A stretch of DNA of 64,000 nucleotides from Chloroflexota bacterium (GTDB lineage: Bacteria; Chloroflexota; Anaerolineae; Aggregatilineales; Phototrophicaceae). This document shows, piece after piece, positions 13,714 through 47,685 of the stretch. The notes beneath the pieces were generated by a model. That model did not search any database. It was not told the DNA's origin and worked only from the letters and a program-made list of their open reading frames with translations. Position numbers and translations under genes: made by a program. The stretch covers positions 1-64,000 of the forward strand of contig QUBZ01000012.1 of the NCBI GenBank assembly GCA_014338005.1. Reading direction: 5' to 3'. How positions within the stretch are numbered: the stretch's first letter is position 1; every line of letters starts with the position of its first letter.

Positions 13714-15123
13714 ATGAGAACCCTGGTTATGAAATTCGGCGGGTCATCCGTCGGCACAAAAACCGCGCTGACCCAGGTTTTGAGCATTGTGCTTTCGGAA
13801 CGCGAGCAGTGGGACCGCATCATCCTGGTCGTCTCCGCCCTGGATGGCGTCACCGACGCCCTCATCGAAGCCGCCCACCTGGCGCACCTGGGCAACCAGC
13901 GCGGCTACCGGCGCATTGTCGCCAACCTGCGAACCCGCCATATGGCTTTAATCGAAGAACTGCCTCTCAGCGCCACCGAACGCGCGGCGCTCCAGGCCGA
14001 CATTGACCGGCTGCTGTTCGACATGCTCGACATTTACGAGGTCATGTCCAATACCCCCGCCGAAACGCCGATACCCCACCTGGTAGACTCGACCATCGGC
14101 GTTGGCGAAAAACTGGCCGCGCGTCTGGTTGCCGCCCTGCTGCGCCAGAAGGACATCCGCAGCGTGGCGCTGGATACCGGCGATCTTGTCATCACCGACG
14201 AGGTTTTCGGCAACGCCATGCCTAATCTGGAACTGACCCGCGAACGCATCGAAAAAAACCTGCTGCCCAGCCTGGAACGCGACATCATGCCGGTCGTCAC
14301 CGGTTTTATCGGCAGCACGCCGTACGGCCAACCCACCACCCTGGGGCGCGGCGGCAGCGACTATACCGCGTCGGTTTTTGCCGTTTGCGTCAATGCCGAT
14401 GAAGTGTGGATATGGTCGGGCGTGGACGGCATGATGACTACCGACCCGCGCGAAGTTTCCCATGCCCGCGTGATCCCTGTGCTGTCGTATGGCGAAGTGG
14501 CCGAAATGGCCTACTTCGGCGCGCGCGTGCTTCATGCCCGCATGATCGGCCCGCTGCGCGAGCGGCACATCCCCCTGCGAATCAAAAACGTGTTTAAACC
14601 CCAACTGCCCGGCACGCTCATTCACGACTCGCGCCCCGACCCCACCCAGAGCCTCAAAGCTGTCACATCCATCGCCGGCCTGGGGCTGTCCGCGCCACAT
14701 AACGGCCCGCTTGGTAGTATCTCGACACTGGTGGATCAAACGCTGTTTGCCACCACCCATAACCATGCCGACGTGATGATCGCGTCCCAGTCGGCCACCC
14801 ACAGTTTTGCCTGTTTTCTGGTTCCCACCAGCGCCGGGCCGGATGCCCTGCATACCATCCGCACCGAGCTGGAAGACAGCCTGCATGACAACCCGGAAAT
14901 CGGACGCTGGACGGTGAAACCGGTGAGCATCATCACCGTGATTCGAGATCGCATTGACGAAACATCTGCCCTCACAGCAGGCATCATCCAGGCGCTTAAC
15001 GGCATCCGCATCCTGGGTTTGAGCCAGGCGCCTTCCCGGTGCAGCCTGTCTATCGTGGTCGAAGCAGAAAACAGCGAACGGGCGCTGCTGACCATCCACG
15101 ACCTTATTCTCAATTCTCAGTAG
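13714..15123 (+). CDS. Aspartate kinase
   Basis: 469 residues. The first step of the aspartate family (Lys/Thr/Met), ATP-dependent phosphorylation of aspartate. Evidence: N-terminal KFGGSSVG, the VVSALDGVTDALI segment, the FIGSTPYGQPTTLGRGGSDYTA motif near residues 205-225, GVDGMMTTDPR, then two C-terminal ACT domains from about residue 320 that usually give feedback control. The length fits the monofunctional class related to ThrA/LysC kinases; no homoserine dehydrogenase domain is attached. ATG 13714 has AGGGGGG directly upstream and is preferred over GTG 13693. The last 7 bp overlap the convergent glnA. Confidence 0.93.
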   Translation: MRTLVMKFGGSSVGTKTALTQVLSIVLSEREQWDRIILVVSALDGVTDALIEAAHLAHLGNQRGYRRIVANLRTRHMALIEELPLSATERAALQADIDRLLFDMLDIYEVMSNTPAETPIPHLVDSTIGVGEKLAARLVAALLRQKDIRSVALDTGDLVITDEVFGNAMPNLELTRERIEKNLLPSLERDIMPVVTGFIGSTPYGQPTTLGRGGSDYTASVFAVCVNADEVWIWSGVDGMMTTDPREVSHARVIPVLSYGEVAEMAYFGARVLHARMIGPLRERHIPLRIKNVFKPQLPGTLIHDSRPDPTQSLKAVTSIAGLGLSAPHNGPLGSISTLVDQTLFATTHNHADVMIASQSATHSFACFLVPTSAGPDALHTIRTELEDSLHDNPEIGRWTVKPVSIITVIRDRIDETSALTAGIIQALNGIRILGLSQAPSRCSLSIVVEAENSERALLTIHDLILNSQ

Positions 15124-16448
15124 CGCATGAGGTAGCGTTCCAGTTCCCAGGTCGTCACCTGCCGGTTATACTCATCAAACTCCTGCCGTTTGGCCGCGCC
15201 GTAGCGGTCACTGATGTATGGCCCCAGCGCCCCCAAGATCACATCGTCCTGGTCGAGCGCATCCAGCGCCTCACCGAGCGAAGTAGGCAGCACTTCCAGA
15301 TGCCGCAGGCGGGTGCGGTCGTGCCGCACCAGCGTTTCCTCCAGCGGGTCGGGCAGCGGCATCCGCTGGCGAATCCCGTCCAGCCCGGCCATCAGCATCA
15401 CGGCGCTGGCAAGGTAGGGGTTGGCGCTGGGGTCGGGGCAGCGCAGTTCGAGGCGTGTATGAGCCTCTTTGCCCACCGAAATGTGCGGCACGCGAATCAA
15501 CGCCCCCCGGTTGATGTGCGCCCAGGTGACATATACCGGCGCTTCAAAACTCGTCCCCAACCGCTTGTATGAGTTGACCAGCGGGGCCAGCACCGCGCAC
15601 ATGGCGCGGGCGTGGGCAAGCTGCCCGGCCATAAAATGCCGCGCTGTTTCCGAAAGGCCGTATTCGTCGCCGGCGTCCGCGAATACGTTCTGCCCGTTCT
15701 GGACGCCGTGCAGGCTTTGATGGGTGTGCATCCCCGAACCCGGCAAATCCATGCTGGGGCGAGGCATAAACGTGCAGTGCAGCCCGCTCCGCTGCGCTAC
15801 CGCCTTTAGCGCCACCCGCGACATCAGAATTTTATCGGCCTGTGCCAGCGCGTCGTCGTACTGAAAATCAATTTCATGCTGCCCGGAGCCGATTTCGTGA
15901 TGAGTCGAGTCAACGTGAATCTGCATGGCCGCCAGCGTATCAAGCATCTGGTGGCGAACCGACTGCGACATATCGGTGGACAGTTCAAAATAGCTGGCGT
16001 CGTCCTGCGGGCGCAGCGGCAAAACCGGCTGGCCGCCGGCGCGGAACAGGAAAAATTCCAGTTCCACACCGGTTTTGTAGGCAAAACCCATCTCCTCCGC
16101 CTGCTTCAAGGCCTTCACCAGCATATTGCGCGGGTCGCCGATGAATGGGTCGCCTTGCAGGGTATGGACGGTGCAGATCAAACAGGCCGTCCGGGACTCG
16201 CGCGTTTCCCAGGGCAGAACGGTAAACGTGCCGAGGTCTGGAACGAGGATCATGTCGCTTTCGGCTACGCGGGCAAACCCTTCGATGGAAGAGCCGTCGA
16301 AGTGCAGGCCAAAATCCATCACTTCGGCCAGCTTGCCCGCCGGCACGGTGATGCTTTTCACCATACCGGTGATGTCCGTAAACCACAGGTCAATAAACCG
16401 GACGCCGTTTTTTTCAACCGCCGCCAGGACGGCTTCTTGAGTCGTCAT
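15117..16448 (-). CDS. glnA: Glutamine synthetase type I
   Basis: 443 residues, the length of the Gram-positive/archaeal GSI-alpha type. It makes glutamine from glutamate, ammonia and ATP as a dodecamer. Recognisable are GLHFDGSSIEGFARVAESDM, the active-site GVELEFFLF, SGQHEIDFQYDDAL, the ATP-binding region TFMPRPSMDLPGSGMHTHQSL, and RLELRCPDPSANPYLA near the C-terminus. The adenylylation-loop tyrosine of GSI-beta is not apparent, in keeping with feedback-type control, but I cannot verify this. Start ATG 16448 follows AAAGGCGG; a longer frame to 16595 is unlikely. It supplies the glutamine used by TrpE/TrpG encoded further upstream. Confidence 0.95.
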   Translation of the reverse strand: MTTQEAVLAAVEKNGVRFIDLWFTDITGMVKSITVPAGKLAEVMDFGLHFDGSSIEGFARVAESDMILVPDLGTFTVLPWETRESRTACLICTVHTLQGDPFIGDPRNMLVKALKQAEEMGFAYKTGVELEFFLFRAGGQPVLPLRPQDDASYFELSTDMSQSVRHQMLDTLAAMQIHVDSTHHEIGSGQHEIDFQYDDALAQADKILMSRVALKAVAQRSGLHCTFMPRPSMDLPGSGMHTHQSLHGVQNGQNVFADAGDEYGLSETARHFMAGQLAHARAMCAVLAPLVNSYKRLGTSFEAPVYVTWAHINRGALIRVPHISVGKEAHTRLELRCPDPSANPYLASAVMLMAGLDGIRQRMPLPDPLEETLVRHDRTRLRHLEVLPTSLGEALDALDQDDVILGALGPYISDRYGAAKRQEFDEYNRQVTTWELERYLMRY

Positions 16449-16517
16449 AAACCGCCTTTCAAACACAACCGGGGCGCGATATAGATCGGCGTTCCCGCTT
16501 TTTTTGTCGGAGCGGTG

Positions 16518-16523
16518 AATATA
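16518..16523 (-). promoter_or_regulatory. Possible -10 element with flanking palindrome for glnA
   Basis: TATATT on the minus strand lies inside an inverted repeat GCGGT...ACCGC (16513-16528), about 70 bp before the glnA start. No good -35 is visible. An overlapping operator would suit nitrogen control, but this is a guess. Confidence 0.25.
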
Positions 16524-16595
16524 ACCGCCCGAACACAGCCTTACCAGGGCGCAGCCTGCCAAAATTTCGGGCGCTCGCTTGTCCAGAGCGGACAA

Positions 16596-17051
16596 TCATT
16601 CCGGGTTCGGCAGCAGCCCCAGGTGGCCGAGCAGCGCGTCTATGCCCAGCAGGTAGCTGCGCCAACCAAAACCGCTGATCTGCCCCACGCATACCGGCGC
16701 GGTCATCGAAACATGGCGGAACGACTCGCGGGCGTGGACGTTCGACAGATGCACTTCCACCACCGCCAGCCCGGTCGCGCTGATCGCGTCCCGCAGCGCA
16801 ACCGAGGTATGTGTGTACGCGCCAGGGTTAAAAACCACGCCCTCGGCCCAGTTGCGCGCGATGTGCAGCATATCCACCAGCGCGCCTTCATGGTTCGACT
16901 GCTCCGCCCGCAGCCCAACACCGCGCCGCCGGGCATAGGCCGCCGCCCAATCGTTGATCTGTTCCAGCGTGACATGGCCGTAAACTTGCGGCTCGCGGCT
17001 GCCCAGCAGATTGAGGTTCGGCCCGTGTAAAAGCAAAATCTCTCTGGACAT
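16596..17051 (-). CDS. aroQ: 3-dehydroquinate dehydratase, type II
   Basis: 151 residues, the usual dodecameric type II enzyme; third step of the shikimate pathway (3-dehydroquinate to 3-dehydroshikimate). [13 protein letters not shown] includes the flexible-loop region; [28 protein letters not shown] and [14 protein letters not shown] are all family signatures. It is the last gene of the aro half of the aromatic block, separated from the upstream zinc-ribbon gene by 4 bp. Confidence 0.96.
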
Positions 17052-17529: not shown

Positions 17530-18591
17530 TTATTGAAGCGCGCGCAGCACATCGAGAACCGTCTCTTTCGGCGCGTCGTCCACGATGACCGGCTGCCCGA
17601 TGCCGCGCAGCAGCACGAATCGCAGCCGTCCCGACTGCCGCTTTTTGTCTGTCCCCATCGCCCCATAAATCGCCTCCGGCTCAAGTTCGCCCAGGTGTGT
17701 GGGCAGCCCGACCCCCGCCAGGATGCGCTCGACGCGCTCCGGCAGCGCGGCGCTGCACAATCCCATCCGGCACGACAGCCAGGCCGCCGCCAGCAGCCCA
17801 ACGCCGACTGCTTCGCCGTGCGGCCAAGCGTACCCCGACACCTGCTCGACGGCATGGGCGAAGGTATGGCCCAGGTTTAAATGGGCGCGCACGCCCTGTT
17901 CAAAGGGGTCGGCCTGGACGACATCCACCTTCACCTGCACTGCGCGCTGCACCAGTTCCGCCGCATCCTGTACGGCTGCCCGCCCGGCTTCAATCAATTC
18001 CAGCAGCCCTTCATCGGCCAGCAGGCCATGTTTGATGGCCTCCGCCAGGCCGCAGCGCCATTCCCGATCCGGCAGCGTTTTTAACACCTCCGGGTCAATC
18101 AGCACCGAATCCGGTTGTTTGAACGCGCCGACCAGATTTTTCCCCTGCGGCAAGTCCACGCCGACTTTACCGCCCACGCTGGAATCCACCATCGCCAACA
18201 AACTGGTGGGCATCTGCACCAGCCGCACACCGCGCAGGTAGGTTGCCGCAGCGAACCCTGCCACATCGCCCACCACGCCGCCGCCCAGCGCGACCACCGT
18301 CCCGTGCCGATCTAAACCCGCCGCGACAAAATCGGTATACAGTCTGGCGGCGCTCGCCAGCGTTTTATACTGCTCGCCGTCCGGTAGCGCGACCAGCGCC
18401 GCATCCGGGTGCGCTTTTGCCAGCGCCTCGCCGTACAGCGGGCCAAGCGTGATGTTGGTCACGATTACGATTTTAGCGTCCGCATGGGGGAAAACCGGCG
18501 GCTCCCCCACAGCGGGAAAGCGCCGCAGCAGCCCCGGCTCGATCAGGATGTCATACCCGCCGCCGGGCGCATTCACACGGATACGGCCCAT
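17530..18591 (-). CDS. aroB: 3-dehydroquinate synthase
   Basis: 353 residues. It converts DAHP to 3-dehydroquinate with NAD and a divalent metal. Family landmarks are ALPDGEQYKTL, the NAD-binding ALGGGVVGDVAGFAA, PTSLLAMVDSSVGGKVGVD, KNLVGAFKQPDSVLIDP, and the metal-ligand region LNLGHTFAHAVEQ with WPHGEAVGVGL. It overlaps aroK by 19 bp, so the two are tightly coupled. Confidence 0.97.
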   Translation of the reverse strand: MGRIRVNAPGGGYDILIEPGLLRRFPAVGEPPVFPHADAKIVIVTNITLGPLYGEALAKAHPDAALVALPDGEQYKTLASAARLYTDFVAAGLDRHGTVVALGGGVVGDVAGFAAATYLRGVRLVQMPTSLLAMVDSSVGGKVGVDLPQGKNLVGAFKQPDSVLIDPEVLKTLPDREWRCGLAEAIKHGLLADEGLLELIEAGRAAVQDAAELVQRAVQVKVDVVQADPFEQGVRAHLNLGHTFAHAVEQVSGYAWPHGEAVGVGLLAAAWLSCRMGLCSAALPERVERILAGVGLPTHLGELEPEAIYGAMGTDKKRQSGRLRFVLLRGIGQPVIVDDAPKETVLDVLRALQ

Positions 18592-19076
18592 AACTGCACA
18601 ACCTCATCAGCCACCTGTTCCGGCGTTTTTCCGGTTGTTATCACCTGGCAGGGAAAAGCCTCGTAGGCCAGACGGCGCTGTTCCAGCAGGGCGCGCCAGT
18701 CGCCGCGCAGCAGCGGGCGCTCGGTCGGGTCGTCTTGCAGCCGCGCCAGGATGGTTTCAGGGTCGGCCATCAGGCAGACCACCACACCGGAAGCCAGCAT
18801 CACCTCGCGGTTGCCGGCATCCACCAGCATCCCGCCGCCGGTAGCGATCACCAACCCGCTTTGTGCCGCCAGAAAACGGCACAACCGCCGCTCGATATGC
18901 CGAAAGGCCGACTCGCCCTCGGTCGCAAAAATCTCCGCGATGGATTTACCGGCCTGTTTGACAATTTCCGCGTCCGTATCCACAAACGGGCGCTCCAGAT
19001 GTTCGGCCACCAGCCGCCCGACCGTCGTTTTGCCCGTCCCCATAAAACCCGTCAGGATGATATTACGATCATTCAT
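18573..19076 (-). CDS. aroK: Shikimate kinase
   Basis: 167 residues. It phosphorylates shikimate at the 3-position using ATP. P-loop GFMGTGKTT near residue 10, the DTDAEIV metal/shikimate motif, FRHIERRL, the ATGGGMLVD shikimate-binding loop and the lid arginines in ERPLLRGDWR are all present. The ATG at 19076 overlaps the end of aroC by 8 bp; longer upstream frames lie within aroC. Confidence 0.96.
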   Translation of the reverse strand: MNDRNIILTGFMGTGKTTVGRLVAEHLERPFVDTDAEIVKQAGKSIAEIFATEGESAFRHIERRLCRFLAAQSGLVIATGGGMLVDAGNREVMLASGVVVCLMADPETILARLQDDPTERPLLRGDWRALLEQRRLAYEAFPCQVITTGKTPEQVADEVVQLWAVSV

Positions 19077-20244
19077 ACCCAAAACGCCACTCCACCCCAT
19101 CCATCGGCAGGTTATCAAGCCGCGCGCGCCGCAGCGCCGCAAAACGCGGGCGTATCTCGTCCAGGCTGTCGCCGCCCAGTTTTTCCAGCAGCGCGTCGGC
19201 GATCACAATCGCCAGCATCGCCTCCCCAATCGGCACAGCGCGCGGCAGCGCGCAGAAGTCGCTGCGTTCGTAAGTGGTTCGTTCCGGCTGGCCGGTCGCC
19301 AGGTTAACCGACTCCAGCCCTTGCAGCAGGGTCGCTATCGGCTTCATGGCCGCCCGCGCTGCAATCGGTTCGCCGGTGCTGATGCCACCTTCGATGCCGC
19401 CGGCGCGGTTGGTGCGGCGCACCAGTTCGCCTTCATCATTGACGAAAATCTCATCATGAACCAACGATCCGCGTTTACCCGCGCTCTCGAACGCCTGGCC
19501 GACCTCCGCGCCCTTCATGGCATGGATGCTGACCAGCGCCGCCACGATGCGCGCATCCAGCCGCCGGTCATAATGCACGTGCGATCCCAACCCCGGCGGC
19601 ACATTGAGCGCCACCACTTCAAAGATACCGCCCAATGTATCTTTGTCAATTTTCGCCTGCCAGATGGCCTCGTGCATAGCTTCTACCGCGTCATCAACCG
19701 GGCAGCGCACATCATTTTCTTCCGCCCGCCGGAAACGCTCTATATACGGCATTTCTGCCGGAATATCAGCCTTCACATTCCCCACCTGCACCACGTAACC
19801 GCCGACACTGATGCCAAATTCCGCCAGCAGCTTTTTGCAGATCGCGCCGACGGCCACGCGCATAGTCGTTTCGCGGGCACTGGCGCGTTCCAGCGCCAGC
19901 CGCAGGTCACGGTAGCCGTATTTAACCGCGCCGGTCAGGTCGGCATGGCCGGGGCGCGGCGTGGTCATGGGCGGGATGTCCTTCTCGCGCCAGTTTTTGA
20001 AGTCGCGGTTTTCGACCAGCAGCGCCACCGGCGCGCCGGTAGTGTGGCCGTTCATCACGCCGGCAGTGATTCGCGCTTCGTCGCGCTCGATGCTCATACG
20101 TCCGCCGGAGCCGTACCCCTGCTGGCGGCGCAAAAGATCGGCGTTAATGTCCTCCGGTGACAGCGGCAGCCCGGCGGGCAGCCCTTCGATGATGGCCGTC
20201 AGCACCGGCCCGTGCGACTCTCCGGCAGTGAGAAAACGAATCAT
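19069..20244 (-). CDS. aroC: Chorismate synthase
   Basis: 391 residues. The last common step, EPSP to chorismate, needing reduced FMN. Signatures: FLTAGESHGPVLTAIIEGLPAG, RRQQGYGSGGRM, TPRPGHADLTGAVKYGYRD and GGIEGGISTGEPI. Slightly longer than the E. coli enzyme, similar to Gram-positive forms. A 115 bp gap separates it from aroE; that gap holds what may be a gene relic (see separate entry). Confidence 0.97.
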   Translation of the reverse strand: MIRFLTAGESHGPVLTAIIEGLPAGLPLSPEDINADLLRRQQGYGSGGRMSIERDEARITAGVMNGHTTGAPVALLVENRDFKNWREKDIPPMTTPRPGHADLTGAVKYGYRDLRLALERASARETTMRVAVGAICKKLLAEFGISVGGYVVQVGNVKADIPAEMPYIERFRRAEENDVRCPVDDAVEAMHEAIWQAKIDKDTLGGIFEVVALNVPPGLGSHVHYDRRLDARIVAALVSIHAMKGAEVGQAFESAGKRGSLVHDEIFVNDEGELVRRTNRAGGIEGGISTGEPIAARAAMKPIATLLQGLESVNLATGQPERTTYERSDFCALPRAVPIGEAMLAIVIADALLEKLGGDSLDEIRPRFAALRRARLDNLPMDGVEWRFGYE

Positions 20245-20359: not shown

Positions 20360-21193
20360 TTAGCCTGATTGTAGCGCGCTTTTTGCCGCCTCGAACATCA
20401 CCTCAACCGGCGCGGGCTGCCCCGTCCAGATTTCAAACGCCGCCGCACCCTGCCGTACCAGCATTCCCAATCCACCGACCGCCTGCCCGCCGGCGGCTTC
20501 CGCCTGCCGCATCAGCCGCGTGACCGCCGGGCGATATACCATATCGTACACCGTTACCCCGCGCGGGAACGGCACGCCGTCTATCCAGGGCGATTCGTCC
20601 ACCTGCGGCCACATGCCGACCGAGGTGCAGTTCACGATCAGTGACACGCCAGCCTGCTCCACCGCCTCATCTAGCGTTTTTGCCTCCACGCCCCACACGC
20701 CCGCCGAAAGCGACAGATCGGCCAACATCACCTGGGCTTTTTCCAGCGTGCGGTTGACCACCGTCACCCGCGCGCCTGCCCGCGCCAGCGTGTAAACCGC
20801 CGCCCGCGCCGCGCCGCCCGCCCCCAACACAATCACGCGCCGGTCGGCCAGGGCGATGCCGTGCGCCTGCAAATCGGCCAGGAAACCCGGCACATCGGTA
20901 TTCGTGCCGCTGTTGTCTCGGAAATCAATCGTGTTGACCGCGCCGACTGCCCGCGCCCGGTCGTCCGGTTTAACGTAGGGCATCACCGCCTGTTTGTGCG
21001 GCACAGTCACGTTCACGCCGATGAAACCACCCTCGTCGCGCAGCGTCCGCAGGCCCTGGCGCACGATGTCCGGCGGAATGGCGGCCAGTTCATACGACCA
21101 GTCCCACAGGCCGAGCGCCGCAAAAGCCGCGTTGTGCATGGCCGGGCTGATGCTGTGTGTCACCGGCCAGCCGATTAATCCGACTCTGTTCAC
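20360..21193 (-). CDS. aroE: Shikimate dehydrogenase
   Basis: 277 residues. NADPH-dependent reduction of 3-dehydroshikimate. Substrate residues are in GWPVTHSISPAMHN and NVTVPHKQAV (catalytic Lys), NTDVPGF holds the Asp; the Rossmann loop VLGAGGAARAA and NRTLEKA suit NADP. The start is a GTG overlapping the stop of the zinc-finger gene as GTGA; the longer ATG frame runs through that gene and has no similarity. Confidence 0.95.
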   Translation of the reverse strand: MNRVGLIGWPVTHSISPAMHNAAFAALGLWDWSYELAAIPPDIVRQGLRTLRDEGGFIGVNVTVPHKQAVMPYVKPDDRARAVGAVNTIDFRDNSGTNTDVPGFLADLQAHGIALADRRVIVLGAGGAARAAVYTLARAGARVTVVNRTLEKAQVMLADLSLSAGVWGVEAKTLDEAVEQAGVSLIVNCTSVGMWPQVDESPWIDGVPFPRGVTVYDMVYRPAVTRLMRQAEAAGGQAVGGLGMLVRQGAAAFEIWTGQPAPVEVMFEAAKSALQSG

Positions 21194-21744
21194 AGCAGCC
21201 CTTTCAGCACAATTAAACCCAGCGCGCCCGCCCCCGGAATGATCGGCAGCGGGCAGCACAGGATGGCCGGCGTCCGGCTGATGACCGCCGACACCAGCGC
21301 CGTCGCGCCCCACAGCCCAAAACCCACCACCGCCAGCACCCCGACCAGCGTCACAAACTGAATCTGACGCCGCTGGCTTTCATAACGCTGCCGCGCATCC
21401 GGCGGCACGCGCCCTTTGCCGCCGCACACCCCGCAGGACGCGAAGCTGAACACGCGCTCGGCTTCGTCTTCGCTTTCGCCCCAACGCCAGGTGCGTTTGC
21501 CGCCGGTTCCCCCGCAGGATGGGCAGGCCGGATAACTTTGCAGCGTTTGCCATTCATCCAGCATCGCGCGCGTGACCGGCCCGCCGCCGCACAACCAACA
21601 CGGCTCGGTGTGCAGATGGCTTTCGCCCATCACATCGTAGCGGTGGCGCGGCTTGAAGGTATATTTTTCCCGACGCTGCCCCACCCCGCCGCAGGCCGGA
21701 CAGGTATCCGGCTTAAACCGTTGAATCTGCTCTGGAGTCGTCAT
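21190..21744 (-). CDS. DnaJ-type zinc-finger membrane protein, unknown function
   Basis: About 184 residues. Four CxxC-type motifs lie in the first 110 residues (CPACGGVG, CWLCGGG, CPSCGGTG, CGVCGGKG), the spacing pattern of the DnaJ cysteine-rich domain that binds two zinc ions. No J domain is present. The C-terminus has two hydrophobic segments (around VTLVGVLAVVGFGLWGA and a Cys/Pro-rich last segment) and probably sits in the membrane. Coupled to aroE by a 4 bp GTGA overlap and 23 bp after aroA. Its place inside the aro operon is unexplained. Confidence 0.6.
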   Translation of the reverse strand: MTTPEQIQRFKPDTCPACGGVGQRREKYTFKPRHRYDVMGESHLHTEPCWLCGGGPVTRAMLDEWQTLQSYPACPSCGGTGGKRTWRWGESEDEAERVFSFASCGVCGGKGRVPPDARQRYESQRRQIQFVTLVGVLAVVGFGLWGATALVSAVISRTPAILCCPLPIIPGAGALGLIVLKGLL

Positions 21745-21767: not shown

Positions 21768-23081
21768 TCAGGGAGGGGTTAAAGCCCTCTCGCTTATGTC
21801 CGCCCCCAGTCCGGCCATCGTCTCGGCAAAGCGGGGGAACGAATCGCCGGCGCATTTTGCGTCCAGCACCGTCGTTTCGCCGTCGGCCAGCAGCCCGGCC
21901 ACGCTCAGGCTCATCGCAATCCGGTGATCGTCGTGGCCGTCCACCGTCGCGGCCTTCAGCGTTTGCGGCCCGCGAATGATGAAGCCATCCGGCGTTTCGG
22001 TGATCTGCGCGCCCAGTTTCGCCAGTTCCGCCGCCATCACGCTGATGCGGTCGGTTTCCTTCACGCGCAGTTCCGCCGCATCCCGCACCATCGTCTCACC
22101 CTCTGCCGCCAGCGCCGCCACCATCAGAATCGGGAACTCGTCAATCATCTCCACCACGACGCTGCCACCGACCTCCACGCCCCTGAGCATACTATGGCGC
22201 GCGCGAATCGCGCCAACCGGCTCACCGGCTTCTAATCCGGTTTCGGTCACGGTGATGTCCGCGCCCATACGCCGCAGCACATCCAGCAAGCCGGTGCGCG
22301 TCGGGTTGAGGTTGACGCCGGTCAGGGTGATGTCACTGCCCGGCACCAGCAGCGCCGCCACCAGCGGGAAGGCCGCCGAAGAAATATCGCCCGGAACGGT
22401 CAAATTCAGCGGTTTCAGGTCGCCGTTGGGCGTCAGCACTACCCGGCTGCCCTCTGTTACGATGTCTGCGCCCATCGCACAGAGCATCCGTTCGGTATGG
22501 TCGCGCGCCGGGCCGGGCTGCACCACCGCCGTCGCGCCCTTCGCAAACAGCCCGGCCAGCAGGACCGCGCTTTTGACCTGCGCGCTGGCAACCGGCATTT
22601 CGTAATAAACGCCTTGCAGGTCGGCAGGCCGGATGGTCAGCGGCGCGCGGTCGTTGACGCCGCTGATGTCTGCGCCCATCATTCGCAGCGGCGTGATGAT
22701 ACGTTTCATCGGGCGGCGGCGGAGCTGCTCGCTGCCATCCAGCACGCTGGGGAACGGCTGCCCGCACATTATCCCCGCCAACAGCCGGATGCCCGTCCCG
22801 GCGTTGACCAGATTCAGCCGCGCGCCCGGCGGCTGGAACGGGCCGCCGTGAATGGTAAGATCGTTTTTGCTGTAGCGTTCAACCTGTATCCCCAATGCCC
22901 GGATGCCGGCTAACGACGCTTCGGTATCGCCCGCCGCCAGCCAGCCCTGAACGCGCGTGATGCCGTTCGCCAGCGCACCGAACATCACCGCCCGGTGCGA
23001 GATGGATTTATCGCCGGGGACGGCGGTTATACCGGCCAGTTTTTGCCCCGGTCGAACGAGAAAACAATCGCCTGTAGTCAT
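21768..23081 (-). CDS. aroA: 3-phosphoshikimate 1-carboxyvinyltransferase (EPSP synthase)
   Basis: 437 residues. It transfers the enolpyruvyl group of PEP to shikimate 3-phosphate. The N-terminal AVPGDKSISHRAVMFGALA carries the PEP/S3P lysine and arginine; NAGTGIRLLAGI is the NAGT loop, LDGSEQLRRRPM follows, and C-terminal RVKETDRISVMA and HDDHRIAMS are present. In NAGTGIRLL the residue after GTG is Ile and the next Arg, as in class II enzymes of Gram-positive type (inferred). It overlaps tyrA by 4 bp. Confidence 0.96.
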   Translation of the reverse strand: MTTGDCFLVRPGQKLAGITAVPGDKSISHRAVMFGALANGITRVQGWLAAGDTEASLAGIRALGIQVERYSKNDLTIHGGPFQPPGARLNLVNAGTGIRLLAGIMCGQPFPSVLDGSEQLRRRPMKRIITPLRMMGADISGVNDRAPLTIRPADLQGVYYEMPVASAQVKSAVLLAGLFAKGATAVVQPGPARDHTERMLCAMGADIVTEGSRVVLTPNGDLKPLNLTVPGDISSAAFPLVAALLVPGSDITLTGVNLNPTRTGLLDVLRRMGADITVTETGLEAGEPVGAIRARHSMLRGVEVGGSVVVEMIDEFPILMVAALAAEGETMVRDAAELRVKETDRISVMAAELAKLGAQITETPDGFIIRGPQTLKAATVDGHDDHRIAMSLSVAGLLADGETTVLDAKCAGDSFPRFAETMAGLGADISERALTPP

Positions 23082-23971
23082 TTTTTATACCCGTTTTCGT
23101 ACTTTTGAATCCAGTTTAATCGGGCCTCCCGCGCCGGTTTCAGGAACTCCGCCACCTTCTGATCGTCGCGCGATACCAGCATGGCTTCCAGCATCGCCAG
23201 CTGCACGCGGAACAGCGCCAGCAGTGTCGCCACCGCCTGCGTATTGGTGCTGAGGATGTCTCCCATCATCTGCACATCCTGCGACGCCAGCCGCGACATA
23301 TCCCGGAAACCGCCCGCCGCCAGTTCCCATACGGTCGGGTCGGCCTGCCCCTGCTGCGCCACCGTCGCCACCAGCGTCGCGCTTAGAATATACGGCAGGT
23401 GGCTGATGGCCGCTACCAGATGATCGTGCCGCTCCGCCTCCATCTCGAACGGCACCGCGCCCAGTGCATCCACCAGCGCCAGCGCCCGCTCCCGCGCCGC
23501 CGGCGTCGTGCGCCGGGTGGGGCATAACACAAATGGCCGTCCCCGGTACAGTGCCGCGTCGCTGTAGCGAACGCCGGGGTTCTCCTTGCCGGTCATCGGG
23601 TGGCCGCCCACCGCCTGAATACCCACCGGCAGCCGCCCCATCGCCTCGCAGATGTCGTGTTTGGTGCTGCCGATGTCCAGCAGCAGGGTATTGGAGCGTA
23701 AATAAGACCCAATGCGCCGCTCTACCATCGCCTGGATGGCACGCACCGGCGCGCACAGAATGACCGTATCCGCTTCGGCCACGCCTTTTTGTAAATCGTC
23801 GGTGGCGGCATCCACCATCCCCGATTCCAGCGCATAGTCGCGCGCTTCGCGGTCGAGATCAACCCCCGTGATGGTGTCCGCGCGCTCCCGCAGCGCCAAT
23901 GCCAGCGACCCGCCCATCAAACCCAGGCCGACGACAGCCAGGTGACGGCTCGAAAAACCACCAGAAGCCAT
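23078..23971 (-). CDS. tyrA: Prephenate dehydrogenase
   Basis: 297 residues. It oxidises prephenate to 4-hydroxyphenylpyruvate for tyrosine synthesis. Rossmann motif VVGLGLMGGSLALAL, DIGSTKHDICEAM, GGHPMTGKENPGVRY with the catalytic-region His, and HDHLVAAISHLPYILS. No ACT domain is attached, so allosteric Tyr control may rest on the ferredoxin-like domain of the DAHP synthase and on the leader attenuator instead. A single-base-pair-scale junction with the GNAT gene (2 bp) and a 4 bp overlap with aroA show operon coupling. Confidence 0.95.
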   Translation of the reverse strand: MASGGFSSRHLAVVGLGLMGGSLALALRERADTITGVDLDREARDYALESGMVDAATDDLQKGVAEADTVILCAPVRAIQAMVERRIGSYLRSNTLLLDIGSTKHDICEAMGRLPVGIQAVGGHPMTGKENPGVRYSDAALYRGRPFVLCPTRRTTPAARERALALVDALGAVPFEMEAERHDHLVAAISHLPYILSATLVATVAQQGQADPTVWELAAGGFRDMSRLASQDVQMMGDILSTNTQAVATLLALFRVQLAMLEAMLVSRDDQKVAEFLKPAREARLNWIQKYENGYKK

Positions 23972-23973
23972 AC

Positions 23974-24456
23974 TTATCCACCTACCTCGGTTAACTGTAG
24001 GCGGTAAACCATCGGTTTAAAACCCAGGTGCGCGTAAAATGCCTGTGCGTCCGCGTTGAACGCCCAGGTATCCAGCGTCACCAGTTGAATGCCCGCCTCC
24101 CGCGCCACGTCATAGACCGCTTCCATCAGCGCCCGGCCATAGCCCCGGCCCCGGCTGGCCGGTTTGACCGAAATCTGGTCAATGTGCAGCAGACGATACG
24201 CATGGTTGTAGGCGTTTTCGGGGCGCTGCACCAGCCGCGCGTAAATGTAACCGACCGGCCCGCTTTCATCCTCCGCGATGAAGGTGAAGCCGTCGGGGTC
24301 GGTCAGCACGCGGGTCAAAAAATCGGCAGCCACCGGCGACAAATCGTCGGGCTGTTTGAACAGGTGCGGCGCAGCATCGGCATGAAGCTGCTGCACGTCG
24401 CGGTTCAGTTCGGCCAGTATGTCGGCATCGGCGGCGATTGCCTGTCGGATGTGCAT
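23974..24456 (-). CDS. GNAT family N-acetyltransferase
   Basis: 160 residues with the GNAT fold: IRQAIAADADILAEL at the N-terminus, the acetyl-CoA loop ISVKPASRGRGYGRALMEAV, and the C-terminal NADAQAFYAHLGFKPM. It acetylates an amino group of an unknown small molecule or protein. Located between aroF and tyrA with 15 and 2 bp gaps. One of several GNAT or Nudix genes embedded in this pathway block. Confidence 0.85.
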   Translation of the reverse strand: MHIRQAIAADADILAELNRDVQQLHADAAPHLFKQPDDLSPVAADFLTRVLTDPDGFTFIAEDESGPVGYIYARLVQRPENAYNHAYRLLHIDQISVKPASRGRGYGRALMEAVYDVAREAGIQLVTLDTWAFNADAQAFYAHLGFKPMVYRLQLTEVGG

Positions 24457-24471: not shown

Positions 24472-25488
24472 TCAGGCCGTTCGCCCGATGGCTTCCGCCA
24501 CCCGGCGCACCTGCTCCATCATCGCCTTAAAGCGGTCAGGTTTAAGGCTCTGCCGGCCATCCGACACGGCTTCCTCCGGCCTGGCGTGAACTTCAACGAT
24601 CAGGCCGTCCGCCCCCGCCGCAACCGCGCTGCGCGCAATCGGCTCCACATACTCCCACAACCCGACGGCATGGCTGGGGTCGGCGATCACCGGCAGATGC
24701 GTGGCGGCCTTGAGGACGGGGATAGCGTTCACGTCGAAAGTGTTGCGCGTGGCCTTCTCGAATGTGCGGATGCCGCGTTCGCACACCATCACCCGCTTGT
24801 TGCCCTGCGCCAGGATGTATTCGGCAGACATCAATAAATCCTCGACCGTGCTGCTCATGCCGCGTTTGAGCAGGATGGTATGCTGGCTTTCGCCGGCTGC
24901 GTTCAGCAGCGTGAAGTTCTGCATGTTGCGCGCCCCGATCTGAAGCACGTCGGCATACTGGCAGACCAGCGGAACGAGCGCCGCGTCCATCACTTCCGTC
25001 ACCACCGGCAGGCCGGTGCGTTCGCGGGCCTCTGCCAGCCATTGCAGGGCTTTTTCGCCGTGTCCCTGAAAGCTGTACGGTGACGTGCGCGGTTTGAACG
25101 CCCCACCGCGCAGCGCCGTCGCGCCGGCCTCTTTGACCGCGCAGGCCAGTTCGATGATCTGGTCACGGCTTTCGACCGAACACGGCCCGGCGATCACCAG
25201 CACCTTTTGGCCGCCCATCAACGCGCCGTTTAATGGAACCAGTGTATCGGCGGGATGGAAGTGCCGGCTGGCGAGTTTGTACGGCACGGAGACGCGCATC
25301 ACTTTTTCCACGCCTTCCATCACGCTGTAGTTTTCTTCTCGCAGCGGCGTCGGGCTTTCCCCCACCACGCCAATGATGGTGTGCTGCTCGCCTTCCGACA
25401 GGTGCGCCCGGTAGCCGTCGGCCTGGACGCGATTTATCACGTCGGAAATCTGCCTGGCGGTCGCTTTTGGTTTCATCACGATAATCAC
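24472..25488 (-). CDS. aroF: 3-deoxy-7-phosphoheptulonate (DAHP) synthase with N-terminal ferredoxin-like regulatory domain
   Basis: 338 residues. It condenses PEP and erythrose 4-phosphate, the committed step. The first roughly 75 residues form the ferredoxin-like domain seen in the Thermotoga-type enzyme, which binds Tyr/Phe for feedback inhibition; the catalytic barrel follows with [53 protein letters not shown] and ADPSHAVG. It is translated from an ATG overlapping aroH by 4 bp. Pathway flux is thus probably controlled at the enzyme by aromatic amino acids and at the RNA level by the leader upstream of aroH. Confidence 0.96.
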
Positions 25489-25889
25489 GGCGAAACCCTC
25501 CCATTCAAAACGATTTTATTGTCCGGGTAAAGATCGGGGCGCAGCACCAGCGCGTCCCGCATATACACATGGCGAATTTCTTCCAGGCTGCGGGTCGTAT
25601 TCCAGTGAATGAGGATGCGAATACAGCGCGGGATGGCGTCCACGCAGTCCATCTCCTGAAAACCCAGCAGCGCGGCCTGCCGCCAACCCAGATCGCGCGC
25701 CGCTTTGGCCGGGTAGGCAGCGTGTAAATCCGGCGTGGTGGTAAACAGCACGCTGGCGACCTCCGCTTCTTTTATCCCGTTGGTTTCGATTATCGCCTGT
25801 AACAGTTCTCTGGTCGCGCTCAGGATTTCGTCCGCCGTATCCTGCTGGACGGTGGTCGCCCCGCGCACGCCTCGCAGCATCATGGTCAT
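25485..25889 (-). CDS. aroH: Chorismate mutase, AroH type
   Basis: 134 residues, a trimeric AroH-fold mutase converting chorismate to prephenate. It begins [18 protein letters not shown] and has [22 protein letters not shown], then [19 protein letters not shown] and the C-terminal [14 protein letters not shown]; the active-site Arg residues ([17 protein letters not shown]) are in place. The ATG at 25889 follows AAAGGGG at 5-6 nt. It is the first gene after the attenuator leader and so heads the aro transcription unit. Confidence 0.94.
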
Positions 25890-25917: not shown

Positions 25918-25947
25918 AAAAAAAGCGCGGAGCGTTTGCTCTGCGCC
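25918..25947 (-). terminator. Rho-independent terminator in the aroH leader (attenuator)
   Basis: On the minus strand GCGCAGAGC, a loop AAAC and GCTCCGCGC form a 9 bp stem with one G-U pair, followed by seven U residues (25924-25918). It lies about 30 bp before the aroH start and about 325 bp after the trpA stop, so it can act both as an attenuator for the aro genes and as an end point for trp transcripts. Confidence 0.75.
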
Positions 25948-25975
25948 TTGTGGTTCCCCGCTTACTTTGTTCAGT

Positions 25976-26080
25976 TCAGCAGCTTACCGTCCGTCCAGCA
26001 CGCAACGCCCCACCCGTTTTTATGTGGCCCGTAAAGTAAAAGTAATAGCAGGCGAAGCGAAGGTTGTGTAAGGTATCCAC
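25976..26080 (-). CDS. Leader peptide with Tyr-Tyr-Phe-Tyr-Phe control codons
   Basis: A 34-residue frame from GTG 26080 to TGA 25976, too short for ordinary gene calling. It begins MDTLHNLRFA, then CYYFYFTGH, and ends RAGRTVSC. Six of its first 16 residues are Tyr or Phe, five of them consecutive. A TAA lies four codons before the GTG in the same frame, so GTG is the only usual start upstream of the control run. The Shine-Dalgarno signal is poor. The promoter ends about 37 bp upstream. The position before a terminator and before aroH-aroF-tyrA matches the role of a leader peptide sensing Tyr/Phe charging. Confidence 0.6.
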   Translation of the reverse strand: MDTLHNLRFACYYFYFTGHIKTGGALRAGRTVSC

Positions 26081-26116
26081 GCTGAGTTAAATTGGGAAAA
26101 TACCTGTATCGCACAG

Positions 26117-26146
26117 AGCGTAACACAATGTCGTCGAAACTGTCAA
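26117..26146 (-). promoter_or_regulatory. Putative sigma-70 promoter for the aro half of the block
   Basis: Perfect TTGACA (26141-26146), 18 bp spacer and TACGCT (26117-26122) on the minus strand. Predicted start near 26110, giving a leader of about 220 nt before aroH. It shows that aroH and the genes after it need not depend on read-through from trp. Confidence 0.55.
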
Positions 26147-37260: not shown

Positions 37261-37298
37261 AAAAAACCCCTTCCCGCCATTGAGGACGAGAAGGGGTT
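37261..37298 (-). terminator. T-box terminator before trpE
   Basis: AACCCCTTCTCGTC, a short loop and GGCGGGAAGGGGTT form a 14 bp stem with several G-U pairs, followed by six U residues. The left arm is next to the antiterminator sequence AGAGGUGGCACCACGG, as expected of the mutually exclusive T-box structures. Confidence 0.85.
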
Positions 37299-37552
37299 CC
37301 CGTGGTGCCACCTCTGTTGTTTTACCCATACAGGGTAAAACGCTCTTTACGGGTACGGGCCAACCAGACAGCCAACCGATACCCTGCGCCTGTAACGGTG
37401 CGCTTCCGGCGCGGACTACTCTACCGTTCGCCCGTGCAACTCCCTGGCCCATTCCACCCTGCTGTATGTACCGCCTTCACAGCTTCCGGCGGCTCTCTGA
37501 ACACCGCTGCGGGGTGTACTTTTCCAGATCAGCGTTGTTATGTATTCAACTG
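37261..37552 (-). promoter_or_regulatory. T-box riboswitch (tRNA-Trp) in the trpE leader
   Basis: Minus-strand leader of about 290 nt with the T-box parts in order. Stem I distal AGAGAGCC and a GAAGGCGG apical arm lie near 37498-37471. A specifier region GGAAUGGGCC has UGG (37451-37449) after GAA. The conserved T-box sequence AGAGGUGGCACCACGG lies at 37315-37300, with the bulge UGGC (37310-37307) that pairs with a GCCA tRNA end. A terminator hairpin follows. UGG is the Trp codon and tRNA-Trp normally has G73, so specifier and bulge agree. Uncharged tRNA-Trp should favour read-through into trpE and the trp genes. Confidence 0.9.
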
Positions 37553-47499: not shown

Positions 47500-47679
47500 G
47501 GGGGCAGCCTGCCATGCCGTGTGAACGCGATGTTTTTGAACCTGCTTTCGCAGGTGGGTCATCTAACTGATATATCCGGTCTTAGCTCCGCAAGCCTATC
47601 ACCATCAACAGCAGACTTTGATGCCCTTCGTTTGGGTGTTGGCTCAAAACGCATTGCGCCATCACGCGCACGGCAGGTT
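47500..47679 (-). ncRNA. ssrS: Candidate 6S RNA (ssrS-like), about 180 nt
   Basis: Minus-strand transcript predicted from its own promoter to the terminator. The 5' end CCUGCC (47677-47672) pairs with GGCAGG near the 3' end (47513-47508) and CACGGC/GCCGUG adjoins it. The next stem pairs CGCAAUG (47658-47652) with CAUCGCG (47532-47526), extended by UUUUGA with UCAAAA. On the 3' side of the central region a tight ACCUGC-GAAA-GCAGGU hairpin lies at 47540-47555. Closed ends, an open centre with a 3'-side hairpin and about 180 nt length are the 6S RNA plan. 6S-1 of B. subtilis also lies by aspS (from memory). No sequence-level match was verified. Confidence 0.5.
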
Positions 47680-47685
47680 GGTATT

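Follow-up and report, generated by a model that had tools for sequence, protein, structure and literature searches.

A 34-codon reading frame with a run of Tyr and Phe codons precedes aroH in the window (the whole 64,000-nt stretch of Chloroflexota DNA analysed here), and it very probably controls the shikimate genes by ribosome-mediated transcription attenuation. The element is real and recurs widely in Chloroflexota. Its parts, their recurrence in relatives, their covariation and, in one type of computed fold, a dependence on the position of the ribosome are all observed. From these we infer that, in the cell, the leader is translated, ribosomes stall on it and transcription terminates behind it.

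The proposed trigger is a scarcity of charged tRNA-Tyr or tRNA-Phe, which would open the shikimate genes to RNA polymerase. With ample supply, the ribosome would pass the Tyr/Phe codons and reach the stop codon, and a protector hairpin, CCAC:GUGG, would reform behind it. This hairpin would hold the antiterminator arm GGGGCGUU, the terminator would fold, and transcription would end 28 nt before aroH. When Tyr or Phe is short, the ribosome would stall in the run and cover the 5′ strand of the hairpin, so that the arm would be freed to pair with the loop and 3′ strand of the emerging terminator (AACGCUCC). The terminator could then not close, and aroH-aroF-tyrA-aroA-aroE-aroC-aroK-aroB-aroQ would be made.

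The aroH leader and its gene run

The features of the locus are given below in window coordinates, with the basis of each assignment in brackets.

26141..26146, minus strand: predicted -35 element of the leader promoter, TTGACA (sequence and motif recurrence)
26117..26122, minus strand: predicted -10 element, TACGCT, with an 18-nt spacer to the -35 element (sequence and motif recurrence)
25976..26080, minus strand: leader ORF, inferred GTG start, 34 codons and TGA (sequence)
26033..26047, minus strand: control codons UAU UAC UUU UAC UUU, encoding Tyr-Tyr-Phe-Tyr-Phe (sequence; the run recurs in relatives)
26010..26027, minus strand: putative protector hairpin, CCAC (26027-26024) with GUGG (26013-26010) (pairing and covariation)
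26004..26011, minus strand: putative antiterminator arm GGGGCGUU, inside the leader ORF (pair counts, native-versus-permuted complementarity, folds)
25929..25936, minus strand: putative antiterminator target AACGCUCC, in the terminator loop and 3′ strand (pair counts, complementarity, folds)
25918..25947, minus strand: intrinsic terminator hairpin and U-run of seven T (sequence; pairing in 42 loci)
25485..25889, minus strand: aroH, chorismate mutase type I, the first regulated gene, ATG at 25889 (Pfam PF07736)
24472..25488, minus strand: aroF, DAHP synthase (Pfam PF00793, PF18152)
23974..24456, minus strand: GNAT acetyltransferase within the gene run (Pfam PF00583)
23078..23971, minus strand: tyrA, prephenate dehydrogenase (Pfam PF02153, PF20463)
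21768..23081, minus strand: aroA, EPSP synthase (Pfam PF00275)
20360..21313, minus strand: aroE, shikimate dehydrogenase, its true start probably further in (Pfam PF08501, PF18317)
19069..20244, minus strand: aroC, chorismate synthase (Pfam PF01264)
18573..19142, minus strand: aroK, shikimate kinase (Pfam PF01202)
17530..18591, minus strand: aroB, dehydroquinate synthase (Pfam PF01761, PF24621)
16596..17051, minus strand: aroQ, type II dehydroquinase (Pfam PF01220)

A first-pass annotation had described a 383-bp gap, a TTGACA/TACGCT promoter, a 34-codon GTG frame, the run Tyr-Tyr-Phe-Tyr-Phe and a terminator 28 nt from aroH, and all of these are in the sequence. The gap extends on the minus strand from the end of the trpA reading frame (26273) to the aroH ATG. 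The intrinsic terminator sits between the leader ORF and this first structural gene, and the 28 nt are counted from the end of its U-run to the aroH start. A Shine-Dalgarno sequence is not evident at the leader start on inspection of the window sequence, and a GTG occupies the same place in the two nearest relatives (L002 and L003).

The genes behind the leader had been given as an aroH-aroF-tyrA operon. These genes are indeed there, but the description understates the run, in which Pfam identifies the complete set of seven common-pathway enzymes together with chorismate mutase and prephenate dehydrogenase. Spacing and strand suggest that the aro genes form one transcript. A glutamine synthetase gene (Pfam; 15117-16595, minus strand) adjoins aroQ and could belong to the same transcript.

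The trp gene run upstream of the aroH locus is led by a T-box before trpE (37279-37541, minus strand; RF00230, 118.6 bits), the alignment of which puts UGG, a Trp codon, at what we take, from general knowledge of T-boxes, to be the specifier position. The trp genes therefore seem to sense tRNA-Trp, and for the aro genes the sensor would be a ribosome translating the leader: both devices would read tRNA charging, but by different means. At the aroH leader site, an Rfam search gave no RF00230 match, and the Rfam leader families (Trp_leader, His_leader and others) gave none at gathering score. When E values up to 10 were admitted, four unrelated matches, each scoring well under its cut-off, appeared there and were set aside as chance. 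T-box matches were found in 22/22 genomes searched, with up to 9 per genome, and lay above the family cut-off in 20 of the 22. The window also contains a 6S RNA at 47502-47682 on the minus strand (RF00013, 72.2 bits).

Recurrence of the leader in Chloroflexota

Three samples of aroH loci were used. The window's order supplied 90 loci out of 91 genomes, one 39-residue fragment being excluded; 60 loci were taken of 132 further genomes with an aroH match in other orders of the class, and 40 of the 59 matching genomes in the phylum's other classes. A leader was counted when a short ORF at most 350 nt from aroH contained at least five Tyr, Phe or Trp codons in seven, and L051, L101 and L209, in which the upstream sequence is too short, were omitted. 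Such an aromatic-rich ORF precedes aroH at 69/89 loci of the window's order, 41/59 loci of the other orders and 12/40 loci of the other classes, compared to 9/1315 dinucleotide shuffles, 3/263 reverse strands and 0/258 segments taken 350-700 nt upstream; the remaining 20/89 loci of the order fall short of this threshold. The core of the first-pass reading, a Tyr/Phe leader attenuator before aroH-aroF-tyrA in Chloroflexota, is strongly supported by the frequency of the run in relatives relative to shuffles. Conservation had been set beforehand as the refuting test, and run, open frame and terminator co-occur in most of the relatives examined.

Among the best 80 of 558 aroH matches, the aromatic ORF is present in 39/59 records titled as Chloroflexota and in 0/20 of other phyla, and it is absent from both records among these 80 that are titled Dehalococcoidia/Tepidiforma. 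Since this set overlaps the other samples, it gives names and no independent count. Promoter-like sites (TTGACn-N15-19-TAYNNT) are found near the leader in 44/69 leader loci of the order and in none of the far-upstream control segments. In some families of the class (L102, L106, L111, L147, L148 and L149), the open frame that holds the aroH match is 448-512 codons long, pointing to a fusion or to a larger protein.

When each of 122 leaders (L001-L190) is scored over its best 11 residues, Tyr occurs in 122/122 and Phe in 121/122. Over these residues, Trp is found in 17/69 leaders of the order, 17/41 of the other orders of the class and 2/12 of the other classes. The last four codons of the run are Tyr or Phe in 41, 39, 36 and 42 of 42 aligned family rows, the last by construction; as the loci were selected for aromatic codons, the codon make-up of the run is descriptive and is no test of coding. 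DAHP synthase genes located away from aroH carried a five-in-seven aromatic run in 0/16 cases (16 genomes; a match was present in 17/18 genomes). A second DAHP synthase-like gene located elsewhere in the genome (G000:C54:2155-2886, L291) is 45% identical and also without a five-in-seven run.

The leader was also compared with the position of the trpA gene. In four family loci, trpA lies -1, 7, 51 or 59 nt from aroH (L006, L024, L042 and L049) and the leader is absent. Across the order, class and phylum samples, a leader is present at 0/19 loci with a trpA-aroH gap of at most 145 nt and at 21/29 loci with a gap of at least 211 nt. A short gap has no room for a leader, so this pattern reflects joint loss and not cause. 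Trp codons occur in the run of 28/95 leaders without trpA within 700 nt compared to 1/20 with it, and because the Fisher p of 0.023 is uncorrected for relatedness, the link between Trp codons and trpA is no more than suggestive.

Alternative pairings and the position of the ribosome

Run and terminator were both located in 78/90 loci of the window's order. An alignment was built from 42 of 55 family loci; in the 13 left out, the run or terminator was not located, or the locus was dropped by hand (L029 and L056). It reveals a conserved stretch immediately 3′ of the aromatic run. The protector helix is paired in 80.2% of the cells of the 42 loci, compared to 71.0% after shuffling and 36–46% when slid, and its covariation (0.305 versus 0.157 shuffled) was reached by 0/500 shuffles. 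The GUGG strand of this hairpin overlaps the antiterminator arm GGGGCGUU. The terminator is paired in 94.7% of cells across the 42 loci, and its covariation was likewise matched by 0/500 shuffles.

For the antiterminator helix GGGGCGUU:AACGCUCC, 74.6% of cells are paired in the 42 loci, compared to 25–49% when it is slid. When letters are shuffled within columns, 72.8% are paired and 33/500 shuffles reach the native value. Cells changed on both sides number 21, compared to 6.8 in shuffles (2/500); the covariation score is modest, being reached by 14/500 shuffles, and further pair types show no excess over shuffles in the 42 loci (182/500). Because the register shifts in some lineages, the longest exact complement was also measured. 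The test took 75 of the 78 loci (L029, L052 and L056 were dropped), one locus per genus. Over 37 genera, the longest exact complement between the segment 3′ of the run and its own terminator averages 5.90 nt, compared to a mean of 4.88 nt for permuted partners (sd 0.18; maximum 5.32 in 200 permutations). Ranking native against swapped terminators by duplex energy proved too noisy (means -16.6 versus -15.5 kcal/mol), and exact complement length was therefore used instead. An antiterminator pairing that would exclude the terminator appears to be conserved across species, clearly in the complement tests and modestly in the fixed-column covariation.

As a whole, the leader is no more stable than its shuffles in a single-sequence fold (z -0.08). 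In several of the genus's rows (L004-L032), an inverted repeat GGUUC..GAACC can be seen by eye around the leader stop codon (alignment columns 70-118), and a second small inverted repeat, UUGAGGAAACUCAA, just 5′ of the terminator.

The first-pass annotation had proposed other partners, in which UUACUUU of the control codons would pair with AAAGUAA and GCGGGG would be the antiterminator on the 3′ strand of the terminator. Both complementarities are present in the window, and AAAGUAA is found in the nearest relative (L002) as well, but the letters of AAAGUAA and GCGGGG differ in most rows that keep the run and the terminator. UUACUUU:AAAGUAA is not borne out across the 42 loci, where it is paired in 44.7% of cells, no better than shuffled (42.2%; 69/500) or slid (up to 48.4%) versions. 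GCGGGG:CUCCGC keeps part of its claim: its covariation was reached by 12/500 shuffles, about the same as for the GGGGCGUU antiterminator, but at 50.4% of cells paired it is barely above slid versions (at most 48.0%) and shuffled ones (48.0%). The protector hairpin, combined with an antiterminator arm that lies within the ORF, appears to fit better, and the two earlier pairings are unlikely to be the switch.

The strand of the terminator that the arm takes was compared in leaders with a terminator found (69/69 in the window's order, 39/41 in the other orders of the class and 8/12 in the other classes), by permutations that ignore the relatedness of the loci. In the window's order, the complement of the arm lies in the terminator loop and 3′ strand (5.91 versus 5.10 permuted, sd 0.12); the 5′ strand also exceeds its permutations, but less strongly (4.81 versus 4.39, sd 0.09). 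For the class's other orders, the complement is found instead in the 5′ strand and loop (6.18 versus 4.95, sd 0.14), and the 3′ strand is hardly matched (4.90 versus 4.62, sd 0.15). In the other classes (8 loci), the 5′ strand is ahead (6.50 versus 5.97), within the permuted range (highest 6.50). It appears, then, that evolution preserved the pairing but changed, between orders, which strand of the terminator is captured.

In the main folds, only the RNA between ribosome and polymerase was folded, which is the usual assumption for attenuator leaders, and the 3′ end was placed where the U-run begins. The antiterminator forms more pairs than the terminator in 23/42 family loci when the A-site is on the last aromatic codon and in 24/42 one codon on. 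The antiterminator wins in 14/42 with the A-site four codons before the last aromatic codon and in 1/42 at -60 nt; downstream, it wins in 13/42 at +12 nt and in 1/42 at +18 nt. Over the 42 loci, this fall-off is gradual upstream and steep downstream. Shuffling of the linker leaves the antiterminator ahead in 5/126 folds. When the 3′ end is moved by +3 bases, it wins in 19/42 on the last codon and in 1/42 at both -60 and +18. No switching is seen in the folds of 19/42 family loci. Among 39 separate loci from the other orders of the class, the antiterminator wins in 14/39 on the last codon, 16/39 one codon before, 6/39 at -60 and 0/39 at +18, and in 2/117 shuffled folds.

In the window itself, with the 3′ end at +7, the fold has 11.2 antiterminator versus 1.1 terminator pairs when the ribosome is stalled on the last codon, and 0.0 versus 8.0 without a ribosome. 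With the 3′ end at -2 and no ribosome, the antiterminator is still ahead, at 8.0 versus 1.8 pairs. Equilibrium folds in which the footprint alone is masked and the upstream RNA is free to pair favour the terminator at every position tried, and the switch therefore rests on the co-transcriptional assumption. In these folds, the protector hairpin stays intact when the ribosome has reached no further than the start of the aromatic run.

Stalling could also be a property of the peptide, if an aromatic-rich nascent chain arrested the ribosome upon sensing a small molecule and not for lack of charged tRNA. Family members do share similar residues behind the run (HI..GALRAG), but these are encoded where the paired RNA arms lie. 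A few loci of other orders (L099, L116, L094 and L103) have comparable endings, such as LLRAG, SLPAG, LPRAG and SLFAG, respectively; apart from these, the residues that follow the run in other orders show no likeness. Moreover, Tyr and Phe interchange at the same run position among relatives, and an arrest peptide is thus very improbable.

An ordinary trp-operon terminator followed by an unregulated aro promoter, with the ORF present by chance, is hardly credible: trpA does end 383 nt upstream, and any terminator there would end trp transcription, but a promoter-like site lies upstream of the terminator, merely 28 nt separate the terminator from aroH, the aromatic run and arms recur far above chance, and trpA is missing from the 700 nt upstream in 95 of the 115 leader loci whose upstream sequence is long enough.

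Known attenuators and the meaning of the aroH leader

In the pheA and trp leaders of E. coli, it is the 5′ strand of the terminator that the antiterminator captures, and translation of the leader stops ahead of the antiterminator. The aroH leader is unlike these in that its putative arm is inside the ORF, the stop codon is behind the arm and, in the window's order, the 3′ strand would be taken. It is like the E. coli pheA/pheST and trp attenuators, as outlined in the available text of PMC11802643, in its control codons, its intrinsic terminator, its predicted mutually exclusive pairing and, in one type of computed fold, the effect of ribosome position.

The first-pass annotation knew of no described example of such a leader in this phylum. 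That holds as far as none was found for Chloroflexota, but attenuation of DAHP synthase genes has been reported in C. glutamicum and proposed in Acholeplasma. In C. glutamicum, aroF is preceded by a leader, aroR, with Phe-Tyr-Phe, and responds to limitation of Phe and not of Tyr (Neshat et al. 2014, as summarized in PMC11802643). The likeness, taken from the description in the available part of PMC11802643 alone, is a Phe-Tyr-Phe leader before a DAHP synthase operon in which stalling raises transcription; the differences are the phylum and the lack of a Tyr effect. For Acholeplasma aroF, the accessible sections of PMC8632094 propose the uORFC-13-1 motif, a Phe-coding uORF. Like the aroH leader, this is a short ORF with one or more Phe codons beside an intrinsic terminator and before aroF, but at least one Phe residue suffices, and its sequences come from Acholeplasma and the environment. 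An older attenuation hypothesis for E. coli aroF is cited in the same sections of PMC8632094. In Shewanella, motifs are predicted in the 5′ UTRs of aroF and aroH, with that of aroF named an "attenuator sensing tyr-tRNA" after a 1980 hypothesis for E. coli (PMC2659441, in its available text). These are unlike the aroH leader in being computed motifs from Proteobacteria, with the leader run not displayed in that text.

Excerpts of papers closer to the phylum deal with other elements. Chloroflexi are mentioned in the excerpt of PMC4833913 merely as a group with relatively few genomes, Chloroflexi T-boxes at trpE are listed in that of PMC2494555, and the portion available of PMC3766115 treats Chloroflexi riboswitches and T-boxes, leader peptides being unmentioned in that portion. 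In Actinobacteria, no conserved element was found before Phe or Tyr operons, according to the excerpt of PMC1262725. The literature searched, which covered few subscription papers, yielded no description of leader-peptide attenuation at aromatic genes in Chloroflexota. A comparative study of attenuators was reportedly made by Lopatovskaya and colleagues in 2010. As far as searches show, the aroH leader is new in the phylum, and it is a variant in the location of its arm and in the strand taken.

If the attenuator is true, ribosome-mediated attenuation gains a phylum. It would also mean that attenuation steers the entry and the whole of the common aromatic pathway, with two amino acids (three in some lineages) read in one run. 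With the Trp-branch T-box in the same cluster, control of a single pathway would be split between two types of sensor for tRNA charging. It is possible, though we lean slightly against so broad a reading, that the leader is an aromatic integrator common across Chloroflexota, which reads Tyr and Phe, and Trp too where the trp operon is not adjacent, and sets the whole shikimate pathway, and in which the antiterminator swapped the strand it captures (3′ in the window's order, 5′ in other orders of the class) with the switch kept. The apparent change of strand between orders would provide a natural series for the evolution of attenuators.
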